The position numbers and the translations under genes were made by a program. Under the pieces are notes generated by a model, which saw only the letters and a program-made list of their open reading frames with translations, did not search any database and had not been told where the DNA came from. Of a stretch of 64,000 nucleotides of DNA, positions 8,576 through 14,266 are shown one piece after another; positions within the stretch are counted from its first letter, which is position 1, and each line of letters opens with the position of its first letter. This stretch comes from Polynucleobacter sp. MWH-P3-07-1 (lineage in GTDB: Bacteria; Pseudomonadota; Gammaproteobacteria; Burkholderiales; Burkholderiaceae): contig NZ_CP061296.1 in NCBI RefSeq assembly GCF_018687555.1, forward strand, positions 1,441,983 through 1,505,982. Direction: 5' to 3'.

Positions 8576-8602
8576 TTAGCACTCACGTGTTGGGAGTGCT
8601 GA
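8576..8602 (-). promoter_or_regulatory. CIRCE operator (HrcA-binding site) of groES-groL
   Basis: TTAGCACTC, nine spacer bases, then GAGTGCTGA. This matches the CIRCE consensus TTAGCACTC-N9-GAGTGCTAA with a single mismatch in the outer position of the right arm. It lies directly downstream of the TATAAT of the groES promoter, the usual place for HrcA repression. Heat-shock control through HrcA is inferred from the family; hrcA itself is not in this window. Confidence 0.93.
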
Positions 8603-8650: not shown

Positions 8651-8678
8651 TTGTAAGGATTAATGGCTTTCCTATACT
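8651..8678 (+). promoter_or_regulatory. Candidate promoter of the EAL-regulator-kinase-dacB operon
   Basis: TTGTAA (8651-8656) and TATACT (8673-8678) are separated by 16 bp, a plausible sigma-70 promoter giving a start near 8685 and a leader of about 100 nt. A TTTCCTA heptad (8668-8674) overlaps the -10. This is the best candidate in the gap, but activator-dependent promoters further downstream cannot be excluded. Confidence 0.5.
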
Positions 8679-8691
8679 CAATATGGCTGGG

Positions 8692-8707
8692 GTAGGAAGT
8701 TTCCTAC
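8692..8707. promoter_or_regulatory. Inverted heptads, candidate BvgA-type regulator site
   Basis: GTAGGAA-GT-TTCCTAC is a perfect 7+7 inverted repeat. The half-sites resemble the TTTC(C/T)TA heptads known for Bordetella BvgA. Further single heptads occur at 8668-8674 (TTTCCTA) and 8617-8623 (CTTCCTA). Because the operon encodes a BvgA-like regulator, autoregulation is a reasonable inference. Binding is not shown. Confidence 0.5.
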
Positions 8708-8734: not shown

Positions 8735-8776
8735 CTCCAATCCGTCCTGCATAGACTGGACGGTCACAGATTGGAG
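8735..8776 (+). promoter_or_regulatory. 5'-leader hairpin sequestering the Shine-Dalgarno
   Basis: CTCCAATC (8735-8742) pairs with GATTGGAG (8769-8776), and the adjoining CGTCC (8743-8747) pairs with GGACG (8758-8762). This leaves a ten-base loop and a six-base bulge on the 3' side. The 3' arm contains GGAG (8773-8776), the only good Shine-Dalgarno for the ATG at 8784. When folded, the RNA would block translation of the first gene of the operon. Confidence 0.6.
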
Positions 8777-8783
8777 AATGCTG

Positions 8784-9617
8784 ATGAGCCCGAAATCCCG
8801 GCTATACACCCTTGTAAAAGCATGGAAGAACAAACCCTTCCAGGAAGTCCGCGATGCTTGCTCGGAGTCTTGGTTAAGCCTAGGCCCCGAAGAAATGGCC
8901 GAACAAGAATCTTGGTCAAAGCGACAAGCAATTAGCCATGAACCGATTTTTAATCTGAAAGGCACAAAACTGACAGGCTCTTTATATAGACCCCTTTTGG
9001 AAGCGAAGGATCTTCAACTCTTGAGACTATTTATGGAGGGCTTAGACACCATCGCCTTTTGGCATCGAAGCGGTCGCTCAATCTCCGGGGTTTTGCCAAT
9101 TCCGTTTCATGCCCTTTCTTCTAAAAACCATGTAGAAGCATTAATCGATCTGATTCTCAACTCTCGACTACCCGTCGGCTCATTAATTTTAGGCTTACAA
9201 CACGCCTCTGTCGCGAAGCTCACACCCGATTCTGAAGAGGGCTTGTCTCGCTTCCGTCGACTTGGTGTCGGCATTCATCTTTTAGATTTCACCGCAACTT
9301 CAGAGCAGATCAATCTAATAGAAAAATTTAGGCTTGAAGGTATTCATATCGCATTACCCCATTTTCGCAATCAAGATCCACCCACTCGCCTCATCTCTCA
9401 AATTCAAAGTGCTGGCACAAAGATATATGCCAGTCATTTGGCTCTTGTAAATGACCTTGAGAATGCTAAACGTCTCCAAGCTGATTACTGCTATGGAGGC
9501 TTAATGATGTCTCCAGTAAGTCGCCATCAAATTTTTCATATTAATGATAGTCGTATTGCCAAAGCCATTTTTTCGCTGCACTCACATAACAACCTCAACC
9601 AAAATGGAGACAAATAA
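8784..9617 (+). CDS. Degenerate EAL-domain protein (BvgR-like), catalytically dead
   Basis: A 277-residue cytoplasmic protein with the fold outline of an EAL cyclic-di-GMP phosphodiesterase but almost none of its active site. HEPIFNLKGTKLTG corresponds to the opening strand, yet the EAL triplet itself has become SLY. The LExTE metal motif is replaced by LGLQ, only LDF remains of DDFG, and the final QGYxxSxP reads YGGLMMSP. It is therefore probably a binding or regulatory protein. ATG 8784 is preferred over 8778 because GGAG lies seven bases before it but only one base before 8778. Its stop overlaps the regulator start (TAATG). An EAL gene beside a BvgA/BvgS-like pair recalls bvgR of Bordetella. 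Confidence 0.75.
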   Translation: MSPKSRLYTLVKAWKNKPFQEVRDACSESWLSLGPEEMAEQESWSKRQAISHEPIFNLKGTKLTGSLYRPLLEAKDLQLLRLFMEGLDTIAFWHRSGRSISGVLPIPFHALSSKNHVEALIDLILNSRLPVGSLILGLQHASVAKLTPDSEEGLSRFRRLGVGIHLLDFTATSEQINLIEKFRLEGIHIALPHFRNQDPPTRLISQIQSAGTKIYASHLALVNDLENAKRLQADYCYGGLMMSPVSRHQIFHINDSRIAKAIFSLHSHNNLNQNGDK

Positions 9618-10240
9618 TGAGAAAACAAGTGATGTTAGTAGATGACCATCCCGCTATGCTGATGGCCCTGAAAAGCATGCTGCAAGACCAATTACTTTTT
9701 GAAGTGGTTGGTCAGGCTCAAAATGGGGAGGAATGCTTACGCTCGATCAAGGAGATGAATCCCAATTTGATCATTCTCGATTTAGATATGCCCAAGACTG
9801 ATGGTTTTGATGTCATTAGACGTATCGGTTTAATGTATCCAGAGGTCCGTATTCTGGTGCTCTCAAGCCTGGATGAGTCGGTTTACGGAGGCCGAGTCCG
9901 CTCTTTGGGTGCACACGGCTTTGTCAATAAGACCGCTGGAGCTGACATCATTCTTTCAGCCTGTCTCGCTATTTCTCAAGGCTATAACTTCTTTGCGCAT
10001 GGTCGAAATGGCAATAGCTCTTTGACAGATAACGATAAGTTGGCACTGATTTCTGATCGCGAATTACAAGTCATGAAGTACCTCGGCAAAGGCAATACCA
10101 ATCAGCAAATTTCTGACATGCTGCATATCAGCAATAAAACTGTGGCGACCTATAAGACGCGGGTCTTTGATAAGTTAGGCATTAATAATATTGCCGACTT
10201 AATTTTATTCTGTCGTAACAATCACATTATCGAAAGTTAA
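9617..10240 (+). CDS. NarL/LuxR-family response regulator, BvgA/EvgA-like
   Basis: A 207-residue transcription factor. The receiver domain (~1-125) has acidic residues D9/D10, phospho-acceptor D55 (LDLDMPK) and a lysine near 104 in VNKTAG. The C-terminal LuxR-type helix-turn-helix (~145-205) reads SDRELQVMKYLGKGNTNQQI, then SNKTVATYKTR and FDKLGINN. This is very close to BvgA in both spacing and the SNKTV-TYKTR recognition helix. Its ATG overlaps the stop of the EAL gene by one base, indicating translational coupling, and the kinase gene follows within eight bases. It is expected to be phosphorylated by the HPT domain of that kinase. Confidence 0.9.
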   Translation: MRKQVMLVDDHPAMLMALKSMLQDQLLFEVVGQAQNGEECLRSIKEMNPNLIILDLDMPKTDGFDVIRRIGLMYPEVRILVLSSLDESVYGGRVRSLGAHGFVNKTAGADIILSACLAISQGYNFFAHGRNGNSSLTDNDKLALISDRELQVMKYLGKGNTNQQISDMLHISNKTVATYKTRVFDKLGINNIADLILFCRNNHIIES

Positions 10241-10247
10241 TTTGGTA

Positions 10248-12740
10248 ATGCATCGATTCATTTTTTTGAGTACCGTATTTGTCTGTCTCACGACAAGTAA
10301 CTTTGTACACTCATTGTCTTTATCTTCGGAAGAGCAAAAGTGGGTCGATGCACACCCCATCGTACGATTTAGTATTCATGAGAAATATCGGCCTTACCTT
10401 AGCTCTGCTTCAGACAAAGAGGGCAAAGGAATATTTAGGGCCTTGCTGGATCGCTTAAGCGAGCACACCCAACAAGAATTTCATCCGATTTGGCGACATT
10501 CTGATGCCGAGATATTTCATCAACTCACTTCCGGCCAAATCCACTTTGTGATTGACCCTCCTCACTTAGATCACAAACCAGGTCCAGCCTTACTACTATC
10601 TGATCCCGTGTTTTGGGGGCAAGATGTACTAGTGGGCTATAAAGGTGCTAACTTAGATCAGCCAAAGGGCGATAGTAGAGTGCTCTATTTTGATCGTGGC
10701 TATTCCAATTTTCAGAATCCAGATTTAATCCCCATTACCGCTAGCACTAACCTGGAGAGCTTAAGTGCCTCCCTAGTTACAAGAGAGGTTGAGGCTCTAG
10801 TGATGCCTGCCAGACTAGCCGCTCAACTCCTCAAGAAGTGGAATCCTTCTGAGATCGACATCCTTGGGCATTATGGTCATCAACCTTTTCCCTATCGACT
10901 ACTGATGGCAGAAAAACATGCGCCATTAGATCGGATCATTCAGCGCTTTTTAAACGATCTAGACCCACTTGAATCAGCAAATGACTTTGGCTTGCCGAAA
11001 CTTGCATCAATCGCGACAACTAAAGAGTCTAGTCATGCCCAATGGCTCTTGACATTGATTTTGCTATTAATCGGAGGGGCTTTTATTTGGGATCTTCAAA
11101 AGAAGCGGGCAGCACAAGATTTACTTGGCCAAACGCTATTGAAAGCGAAAAATATAGCTGAACAGGCCAATGCTGCAAAGTCCTCTTTCTTGGCAACGAT
11201 GAGCCATGAAATACGAACTCCAATGAACGCTATTCTGGGCATACAAGAACTGTTACTCAATAATCCGAGCATTCCTCCCAATGAGAAGACCTTACTCAAA
11301 AGCGCTCATAGCTCTGCTCAATCTTTACTGGGAATCTTGAATCAAGTTTTAGATCTATCGAAAATTGAAGCAGGAAAGCTAAGCCTTAATCCGGTTTCAT
11401 ATGATCTAAAGGCTTTGATTGACGATATTCACGCTTCTTTTTCGCCGATTGCGAAAAAGGGAGGCTTAATTCTTCACACTACGGTGGATAAAAGACTTGC
11501 AGAAGTGCTAATGGTTGATGGCTTACGCTTTAGGCAAATTCTGCAAAATCTCATCAGCAATGCAATCAAATTTACCAAGCAAGGTGAGATCTATTTTTCA
11601 GTGAGCGTGCTTGCGGATGATCATGCCGGTCAGCTCCTAGAATTTAGGGTCATTGATACCGGCATCGGAATGCGTTCTGATGAAATTGAATTAGCCCTTC
11701 AAGAATTTGAGCAGCTCTCAGCAGCGGGTCAAGTAAATCAGAATAGTGTCATACAGGGCAGTGGACTGGGTTTGGCGATCACCAAACGCTTACTAGAGTC
11801 AATGGATAGTCACCTCTACTTTGACAGCGCACCGGGATTCGGAACCAATGTCCATTTTTCAGTTGCCCTTTCGAGAACAGGGGATGCAGCTGTAAGCCAC
11901 TCGAGCCATGCGGCAGCTCGATCTTATGTCACCGAAAGTATTGCCGGCCGACAAAAAATCAGGGGACAAAATATTGCTACTTTAGTGGTGGAAGATCATG
12001 CAGCTAGTCGCCAAATTTTATCCCTCCAACTTGAGGCTCTGGGGTTCAAGGTTTTGGTTTGCGAGTCTGGAGCCAAGGCGCTTGATCTCATTGATGAGCA
12101 TCATTTTGACTTACTGCTGACAGATCAGTCTGTCCCAGGCATGCAGGGTTCCGAGCTTTCCAAAAAAATCAGATCCTCAGGTAACACCGACCTGATTATC
12201 ATTGGTATTACTGCCGATATCTATGCTCTAGAATCCCGTAGCAAGTTCATGAGCGCCGGAATGAATAGTGTCTTAATTAAACCGCTAAGCCTCAAGACAC
12301 TCGAGCAAGAATTGAGGCAATATTTTCATTTCTCTGAAGAACCAACCGATGATCTAGGCAGTGAATATTCATTCGACAATTTTGGTCCACTTTTTCAAAA
12401 TGATCCAAACAAAATATTGCTTGTACTTGATGAAATTCAAAAGGTTCATGATGAGTCACTAATGGAACTCAGGAACTCATATTCGAAAGGAAAGCTCTCC
12501 CAGAGCGACTTTGATCAGTTGCTTCATAAAATCAAAGGTGGCGCCGCCCTTTTAAATGCAAAACAGTTTATTGCGGACTGCACGATCTTAGAGCTAGATA
12601 CTCATTTAGAAAGCAGAATTTCAAGCTTGATTGACTTATTAGAAGAGCAGAATTTACTGATTGAGAGATACAAGAATAGATTAGCGACAGCTCCCAAAAA
12701 TGAATGTTTTAATGGAATCCAAATTACGCCTAGAATCTAG
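10248..12740 (+). CDS. BvgS-like hybrid sensor histidine kinase
   Basis: An 830-residue membrane kinase. It has a signal peptide (~1-24) and one periplasmic solute-binding (Venus-flytrap, SBP_bac_3-like) domain (~30-255) with a WVDAHPIVRFSI opening typical of BvgS/EvgS. One transmembrane helix follows (~264-285), then a HisKA domain with H320 in SHEIRTPMN. The HATPase has its N-box near 435, DTGIGM and GSGLGLAITKRLLE. A receiver domain carries D626 in LLTDQSVPGM, and a C-terminal HPT domain carries H760 in LLHKIKGGAALL. All phosphorelay residues are present. It is smaller than Bordetella BvgS, with one periplasmic lobe pair and no PAS domain. A TTG at 10242 is an alternative start, but ATG 10248 gives a cleaner signal peptide. 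dacB follows two bases later. Confidence 0.92.
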   Translation: MHRFIFLSTVFVCLTTSNFVHSLSLSSEEQKWVDAHPIVRFSIHEKYRPYLSSASDKEGKGIFRALLDRLSEHTQQEFHPIWRHSDAEIFHQLTSGQIHFVIDPPHLDHKPGPALLLSDPVFWGQDVLVGYKGANLDQPKGDSRVLYFDRGYSNFQNPDLIPITASTNLESLSASLVTREVEALVMPARLAAQLLKKWNPSEIDILGHYGHQPFPYRLLMAEKHAPLDRIIQRFLNDLDPLESANDFGLPKLASIATTKESSHAQWLLTLILLLIGGAFIWDLQKKRAAQDLLGQTLLKAKNIAEQANAAKSSFLATMSHEIRTPMNAILGIQELLLNNPSIPPNEKTLLKSAHSSAQSLLGILNQVLDLSKIEAGKLSLNPVSYDLKALIDDIHASFSPIAKKGGLILHTTVDKRLAEVLMVDGLRFRQILQNLISNAIKFTKQGEIYFSVSVLADDHAGQLLEFRVIDTGIGMRSDEIELALQEFEQLSAAGQVNQNSVIQGSGLGLAITKRLLESMDSHLYFDSAPGFGTNVHFSVALSRTGDAAVSHSSHAAARSYVTESIAGRQKIRGQNIATLVVEDHAASRQILSLQLEALGFKVLVCESGAKALDLIDEHHFDLLLTDQSVPGMQGSELSKKIRSSGNTDLIIIGITADIYALESRSKFMSAGMNSVLIKPLSLKTLEQELRQYFHFSEEPTDDLGSEYSFDNFGPLFQNDPNKILLVLDEIQKVHDESLMELRNSYSKGKLSQSDFDQLLHKIKGGAALLNAKQFIADCTILELDTHLESRISSLIDLLEEQNLLIERYKNRLATAPKNECFNGIQITPRI

Positions 12741-12742
12741 GA

Positions 12743-14266
12743 ATGTCTTTACTTAAGCCACTAAAAATACTGACTTTATTGCTGGTGTGTCAGCTTGCTC
12801 ATGCTGCACCAGAACAAATACTCCATTCGCTACCGAAGGCTGTTTTATCTAGCCTAGAAAAGAATCAAATTTCCCCTGAAGCCATGGGGGTTTCAGTTAT
12901 GGAGATTCTTAAGACGGGGTCAGGAAAATCTGAAGCGAGAGCAGTCTTAGACTGGAATGCCAGTAAGCCCATGAATCCAGCTTCAACCATGAAGCTCTTA
13001 ACTACACTTACTAGCTTAGAAGTGTTAGGTCCAGGCTATCGTTGGCGCACTAATTTATATACTGATGGCCTCATTCGACAGGGTGTCCTCAAGGGAAATC
13101 TTTACCTCCAAGGGAGCGGAGACCCAAAACTCATTCCTGAAGAATTAGCCAAGATGATGCAAGCATTACAGAATCTTGGCATCCAAAAAATTGATGGCAA
13201 CCTCGTCTTTGATAGAAGCGCTTATGCTAAAGAGGTCATGGAGCAGCAATCTATTGATGGGGAAGAATCTCGCGCCTATAACGTTTCCCCCGACCCTCTG
13301 CTTTACTCATTTCGAACCCTATCTTTCACCTTGAGTAAATCGCGTACGGCAGATTTCATTGATGTTAGCTATACGCCCACCCTATCTCAATTGACCATCA
13401 ATAATCAACTAAGACTAGTGAATCAATCTTGCGATAACTGGAAAAAAGGAATTGCTTTTGACTTGATTGGCAACAATAAGCAGAACATTGGAGAAAAGAT
13501 ACTTACAGCAAACTTTAACGGCTATTTCCCCGCTGCCTGTACTAATGCTGCTTATAACGTGGTTGCAATCGATGCCAACACTTTTTTAACCAAAGGCTTC
13601 TCTGCAGCTTGGGAGCAATCTGGCGGGACTTGGGCGCAAGCACCTGATGGCCAAGACGGGACGGTACCAGTCTCCGCCAGACCGCTACTGCAATTTGAAG
13701 GAATTAAGCTTGCAGATGATGTTCAGGACATCAATAAGTTTTCCAATAACGTCATGGCTAGACAAGTCTTACTGACACTGGCTTTAGAGAAAGTGGGTAA
13801 ACCCGCGAGTGTCGAGAACGGTGATTTAGTCATTCGGAGCTGGCTAAAAAAGATGAATCTACAGTTTCCGGAGCTTGTCATTGAAAACGGGGCTGGTTTA
13901 TCTAGAAATGAAGCCATCACTCCAGAACATATGAATCAGCTATTAGTGCTTGCTCGAAGCCTTCCAACAGGAGATATTTTTTATAACAGCCTACCGATTG
14001 CTGGAGTAGATGGCACGATGAGAAATCGTTTGTTAGTTCAATTGCGTAAATTTCTTCATCTACAGAAAAAACCGGAAGCTCGAATTAAGACAGGGTCACT
14101 CTCTGATGTACGCTCGATATCAGGATATGTTGTGAGCAAGTCTGGAAAAATATACGCCGTCACTTCGTTTATTAATGATCCAAATGCCAATAGGGGCATT
14201 GAGGCGCAAGATCAGCTGTTGTCTTGGCTACTAGAGGATGGTCCTGAGCCAAAGCAAGCACGCTGA
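12743..14266 (+). CDS. dacB: D-alanyl-D-alanine carboxypeptidase/endopeptidase (PBP4)
   Basis: A 507-residue periplasmic class-C penicillin-binding protein that trims or cleaves peptidoglycan cross-links. A signal peptide ends near AHA (~21). The three active-site motifs are intact: S81-T-M-K84, S334-N-N336 and K449-T-G451. The large insert between the first two motifs is typical of PBP4. The gene begins two bases after the hybrid kinase, so it is almost certainly in the same operon, linking a cell-wall enzyme to the BvgAS-like system. Its last 55 bases overlap the 3' end of the convergent tsaC/sua5 gene. Confidence 0.93.
   Translation: MSLLKPLKILTLLLVCQLAHAAPEQILHSLPKAVLSSLEKNQISPEAMGVSVMEILKTGSGKSEARAVLDWNASKPMNPASTMKLLTTLTSLEVLGPGYRWRTNLYTDGLIRQGVLKGNLYLQGSGDPKLIPEELAKMMQALQNLGIQKIDGNLVFDRSAYAKEVMEQQSIDGEESRAYNVSPDPLLYSFRTLSFTLSKSRTADFIDVSYTPTLSQLTINNQLRLVNQSCDNWKKGIAFDLIGNNKQNIGEKILTANFNGYFPAACTNAAYNVVAIDANTFLTKGFSAAWEQSGGTWAQAPDGQDGTVPVSARPLLQFEGIKLADDVQDINKFSNNVMARQVLLTLALEKVGKPASVENGDLVIRSWLKKMNLQFPELVIENGAGLSRNEAITPEHMNQLLVLARSLPTGDIFYNSLPIAGVDGTMRNRLLVQLRKFLHLQKKPEARIKTGSLSDVRSISGYVVSKSGKIYAVTSFINDPNANRGIEAQDQLLSWLLEDGPEPKQAR

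Follow-up and report, generated by a model that had tools for sequence, protein, structure and literature searches.

We lean toward the view, drawn from sequence analysis, that a four-gene cluster in Polynucleobacter encodes a genus-specific phosphorelay of the EvgA/BvgA class, which would feed back on its own expression and be tuned by a catalytically dead EAL protein through protein binding. More tentatively, this dead EAL protein may be a dedicated, c-di-GMP-independent protein modulator of a near-invariant EvgA/BvgA-type regulator, which persists even without the kinase. The argument draws on gene order and domain content, the replaced catalytic residues, purifying selection, a palindrome with fixed spacing, and retention of the EAL gene in genomes without diguanylate cyclases. 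Its chief additions are a putative autoregulatory operator and a dead EAL retained without c-di-GMP enzymes. The window, i.e., the whole stretch of 64,000 nucleotides that was analyzed, comes from Polynucleobacter sp. MWH-P3-07-1, whose genome is closed (1.71 Mb). The features discussed are as follows.

8692..8707, no strand: palindrome GTAGGAAGTTTCCTAC (GTAGG-N4-TTCCTAC), putative operator of the regulator, conserved at fixed spacing
8752..8757, + strand: TAGACT box, putative -10 element, invariant in 22 aligned promoters
8784..9617, + strand: degenerate EAL-domain protein, 277 aa (open reading frames, Pfam, alignment, model)
9617..10240, + strand: response regulator of the EvgA/BvgA/FimZ class, 207 aa, receiver residues intact (open reading frames, Pfam, NCBIfam, tree)
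10248..12740, + strand: hybrid kinase with one periplasmic VFT, a TM segment, HisKA, HATPase_c, REC, and Hpt (HKIKGG) (Pfam, models)
12743..14266, + strand: dacB (PBP4, Peptidase_S13), a loosely linked neighbor (Pfam, NCBIfam)

Gene order, regulator, and kinase

The original prediction had the EAL, regulator, kinase, and dacB genes packed closely at 8784-14266, and rechecking of the coordinates and gaps bore this out. The EAL stop codon (TAA, 9615-9617) shares one base with the regulator ATG at 9617, a 7-base gap separates the regulator (9617-10240) from the kinase ATG at 10248, and 2 bases lie between the kinase end at 12740 and the dacB start at 12743. For the EAL gene, 8784 (MSPKSRLY) is the most likely start; we preferred it over the ATG at 8778 because the protein begins M[KTS]PKSRLY in other lineages. 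Upstream, TTAGCACTC-N9-GAGTGCTGA at 8576..8602, which we take to be the CIRCE element of the divergent groESL operon, is kept in most relatives and is a neighbor outside the module.

A search of 37 same-genus genomes recovered the EAL gene from 35, a few of which have it in broken form. EAL, regulator, and kinase stand together near groESL in the 34 loci read, the exceptions being a contig end or an insertion; since this order next to groESL recurs genus-wide, the layout is not chance. Within the main clade, identity to the window is 89 to 92% for the regulator, 60 to 64% for the EAL protein, 67 to 71% for DacB, and about 50% for the kinase (about 37 to 44% for its sensor part). Pairwise omega values, limited to pairs with unsaturated synonymous change, are 0 to 0.02 for the regulator, 0.08 to 0.18 for EAL, 0.08 to 0.12 for the kinase, and 0.04 to 0.07 for DacB. 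By these values the regulator is near-invariant and the EAL gene is under purifying selection; together with the genus-wide synteny they rule out operon decay or chance. Damage was seen in individual genomes: two stops in the EAL gene of G001, a frameshifted kinase in G013, broken EAL and dacB genes in G022, and, in G016, a broken EAL gene, a lost kinase core, and a truncated dacB beside an intact regulator and palindrome. As G016 indicates, the regulator persists even where the kinase is lost. The closed 1.66-Mb genome of another genus member (G409) gave no match to the regulator profile at E 1e-45.

Tn7-like elements (TnsA, TniB, TniQ) recur at the operon (L231:300-18395, L233:7902-13385, L058 at about 1400, and L061 at about 1370), which may be an insertion hotspot for them. 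In P. parvulilacunae, a Tn7-like element of ~18 kb sits in EAL codons 4 to 6 with an apparent 5-bp duplication (GAAAT). G013 has another one directly upstream of the operon, and Tn7-like element-end sequences are found upstream in G008 and G019.

The regulator carries the Pfam domains Response_reg and GerE, and its best NCBIfam and PDB match is EvgA. In a tree anchored on EvgA and FimZ, without a BvgA row and with several long branches, the Polynucleobacter regulators form one separate 100/100 clade, grouped with EvgA and FimZ and apart from NarL, UvrY, and RcsB, with moderate support for the split (82/92). The description of the regulator as BvgA-like thus holds at the level of the EvgA/FimZ group, and placement among unrelated NarL-type systems was not found in this moderately supported tree. 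The recognition helix reads SNKTVATYK in the window versus SNKTVSTYK in EvgA (pattern SNKTVxTYK). The closest regulators found outside the genus reach about 42% identity at most and sit among different gene neighbors. When the PDB-derived BvgS was used as the query in the sampled genomes, the best relatives reached only 38 to 40%, and no Bordetella BvgA or BvgR sequence was found there.

The kinase shows the HisKA-HATPase-REC-Hpt phosphorelay architecture, with Pfam matches to HisKA, HATPase_c, and Response_reg and a low-scoring Hpt match (E 0.028) that has a proper HKIKGG motif. Its periplasmic part is a single VFT of about 230 residues, for which Pfam made no call above threshold; no PAS domain was found by Pfam or in the model. 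That the kinase is BvgS-like, as first proposed, was upheld by both sequence and fold, the best matches of the VFT being BvgS VFT2. By sequence, BvgS VFT2 in the PDB was matched at E 3.6e-4, and a fold search with a model of modest quality (mean pLDDT, 67.7) returned 3mpl, 3mpk, and 4q0c at the top, followed by RmcA and EvgS. Two deep lineages have kinases of 527 to 586 aa with short membrane segments before HisKA and without VFT; therefore, either ligand sensing by the VFT was not an ancestral trait of the entire genus or it was lost. In L049 and L065 the VFT sensor is partly deleted (kinases of 723 and 709 aa) and the kinase core is retained.

The palindrome and its fixed spacing

Between groESL and the EAL gene, the palindrome lies exactly 44 bp upstream of TAGACT in every one of the 73 distinct operon promoters with both elements, and no other spacing was seen; in L191 it is paired with TAAACT in TAGACT's place. 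Wherever the upstream region of a main-clade operon is intact, the palindrome is present, about 77 bp ahead of the start codon. The 44-bp spacing is kept even in L074 and L076 (with one changed base in the L076 palindrome), whose regulators are only 58 to 61% identical to that of the window. A pattern search across genomes found the palindrome in 72 of 91 genus genomes, mostly once each, and a control pattern was rare. At the operon of one deep lineage (L069-L073, L075), the palindrome is absent.

The half-site of the EvgA/BvgA class (TTCCTA/TTCYTAC) is thus present, at sequence level, at the module's own operon. The form TTC[CT]TAC also occurs in the E. coli emrK-evgA spacer, as TTCTTACGCCTGTAGGATTAGTAAGAA, and BvgA recognizes inverted TTTCCTA heptads (PMC4314077). 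Nothing useful on an EvgA box turned up in the literature. TAGACT is a poor match to a -10 element. If it is taken as the -10, with a putative start site at about 8764, the palindrome center falls near -64.5. This is a usual position for an activator. We infer that the palindrome is the regulator's autoregulatory site, at which binding would activate rather than repress the operon.

Repression of the operon by its own regulator is, in our judgment, unlikely. The regulator would then bind immediately 3' of an upstream promoter, TTGTAA-N16-TATACT (-10 at 8673-8678), which scores 9 of 12 in a promoter scan; TATA[AC]T is conserved at this place in much of the main clade, and TATACT as the -10 would put the palindrome just past its start site. 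However, L064 and L065 lack the TATACT segment, and no counterpart was seen in L074 and L076, which keep the palindrome and TAGACT at 44 bp. A fixed spacing to a downstream box is also more typical of activators.

It is quite improbable that the palindrome serves another transcription factor and that the regulator has its targets elsewhere. A few further loci do carry the same palindrome, mainly in a lineage without the operon copy, but in the main clade it is nearly unique to this operon, and its half-site fits the EvgA/BvgA class, to which the operon's sole DNA-binding protein belongs. Autoregulatory activation remains our preferred reading of the palindrome.

In L212-L217, L219, and L228, from lineages without the operon palindrome, GTAGGAAATTTCCTAC or near variants occur at other shared loci: between HTH-like and sucA-like genes, between TonB-receptor-like and CorC-like genes, and beside a low-molecular-weight phosphatase-like gene (all named by sequence resemblance). 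In the main clade, L222, L223, L224, and L226 (position 2501) have a second palindrome just after ligA, before a FAD-binding-like or NUDIX-like gene. Synonymous sites are constrained in the first 20 EAL codons (window 8784-8843), with 1.29 distinct codons per invariant residue versus about 2 to 3 elsewhere. The idea that the conserved 5' block holds a structured RNA leader was rejected (no Rfam match near threshold; covariation term, -0.05; fold z-score, -0.49).

The degenerate EAL protein and c-di-GMP

The first gene was predicted to encode a degenerate EAL protein, and we agree: its Pfam EAL score of 28.1 bits is below the curated cutoff of 31.3, and active-site positions are lost. In the sequence alignment, the catalytic Glu of ExLxR is replaced by Leu or Ile, DDFG reads xxF[GTE], and AEGVE reads AS[HN]xx or others. 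Substitutions also predominate at the N, E, DD, K, E, and Q positions, some of which were placed by eye and are less sure than the ExLxR Glu. The fold is that of an EAL barrel: the AlphaFold core (residues about 51 to 243) has a pLDDT of about 85 to 94 and matches many EAL domains with a Foldseek probability of 1.00. The N- and C-terminal tails are the best-conserved parts of the protein, yet they are disordered in the model.

No GGDEF and no PilZ proteins were found in G004 (closed), G011 (P. sphagniphilus), G013, and G019, and the EAL gene is intact in all four; in G022, where five GGDEF domains and a PilZ protein are present, it is broken. Retention of the EAL gene therefore does not follow c-di-GMP, and the protein cannot rely on c-di-GMP produced inside the cell. 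We know of no source of c-di-GMP in a cell without a cyclase. As for the window genome itself (L078, L079), it encodes two GGDEF proteins whose GGDEF/GGEEF motifs are intact, it lacks PilZ, and the degenerate EAL is its only EAL protein.

A degenerate EAL protein that acts by protein contact is already known in RflP/YdiV, which targets FlhD4C2 (PMC5930307), and protein contact is the most likely role here. We doubt that the protein is instead a noncatalytic c-di-GMP receptor coupling the messenger to the phosphorelay. A review proposes such a role for BvgR (PMC12805831), and the GGDEF proteins of the window genome would be compatible with it. The cyclase-free genomes with an intact EAL gene and the broken gene in G022 argue against it, as does the replacement of E and R of ExLxR and of most other pocket positions in the alignment.

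In the mechanism that we propose, centered on protein contact, the kinase would pass phosphate along His-Asp-His-Asp to the regulator, which would bind GTAGG-N4-TTCCTAC centered near -64.5 and activate its own operon. The dead EAL protein, encoded first, would act nonenzymatically and independently of c-di-GMP, binding a protein and so tuning the loop; the first candidates for its partner are the regulator and the kinase.

The mode of action of BvgR, a dead EAL protein next to a virulence phosphorelay, is counted among the open questions (PMC12805831). In Polynucleobacter, a harmless freshwater genus, a similar dead EAL shares one operon with the same regulator class and is kept in species without a diguanylate cyclase. 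This retention argues for a messenger-independent mechanism that can be tested outside pathogens; if true, the genus would serve as a natural test of messenger-independent action by dead EAL partners of the Bvg type. The fixed 44-bp spacing between operator and promoter offers a ready reporter.

dacB and comparison with known systems

The dacB product scores 254.5 bits for Peptidase_S13, above the cutoff, and 185 bits for NCBIfam PBP4 (TIGR00666). In the window genome dacB is probably cotranscribed with the operon, and its 2-bp gap to the kinase is the tightest seen. Elsewhere the gap is mostly 22 to 74 bp, and in L054 (P. parvulilacunae), L074, L076, and L077, the two are set apart by unrelated genes or by about 1.7 to 2.4 kb. 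dacB stays beside tsaC wherever the contig shows it. Being uncoupled in four genomes, dacB does not support a cell-wall output as core to the module. Relatives of the EAL protein that bear a name are all from Polynucleobacter, the rest being betaproteobacterial MAGs, and a genus profile run against 300 genomes of the order found no specific relative of this EAL family outside Polynucleobacter.

The set had been read as an ancestral BvgASR with a small periplasmic ligand as its input and, through dacB, the cell wall as its output; the 2-base gap and the resemblance of the VFT to BvgS VFT2 speak for this, but with dacB uncoupled, two deep lineages without VFT, an EAL family found only in this genus among the 300 order genomes, and a regulator clade of its own whose nearest outsiders (~42%) have other neighbors, the ligand-to-wall link is weak and the reading as a whole very improbable.

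Among known systems, mrgRS-ORF1 of Burkholderia pseudomallei, compared by description, likewise has a NarL/LuxR-type regulator, a kinase, and a nearby EAL gene likened to BvgR; however, this EAL gene lies downstream, past a strong terminator, and MrgR is closest to RcsB (PMC1557856). RflP/YdiV shares a stand-alone EAL fold and acts by contact with a transcription regulator (PMC5930307). It lies outside any two-component operon, and the likeness drawn here is one of fold and proposed mode of action.

E. coli EvgA/EvgS provides the best PDB and NCBIfam match for the regulator, the half-site TTC[CT]TAC upstream of evgA, and the helix pattern SNKTVxTYK. Unlike the Polynucleobacter system, to which it is about 30% identical, it has two VFT domains in EvgS, and no EAL gene was found in the annotated evgAS region of E. 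coli.

BvgA/BvgS/BvgR of Bordetella is alike in regulator class (from a tree without a BvgA row), in half-site (TTTCCTA versus TTCCTAC), in a VFT nearest to BvgS VFT2, in a phosphorelay with REC and Hpt, and, going by published descriptions of BvgR, in a catalytically dead EAL partner at the same locus; 12 of 13 conserved residues are missing in BvgR (PMC11537037, PMC12805831). In contrast, BvgS has two periplasmic VFT domains and PAS versus one VFT and no PAS found in the Polynucleobacter kinase, and bvgR forms its own unit behind bvgAS (PMC1557856), whereas the Polynucleobacter EAL gene opens the operon. Also unlike BvgASR, the Polynucleobacter VFT is not conserved across the genus and the regulator clade is genus-specific. 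We conclude that the module is lineage-specific rather than an ancestral BvgASR.
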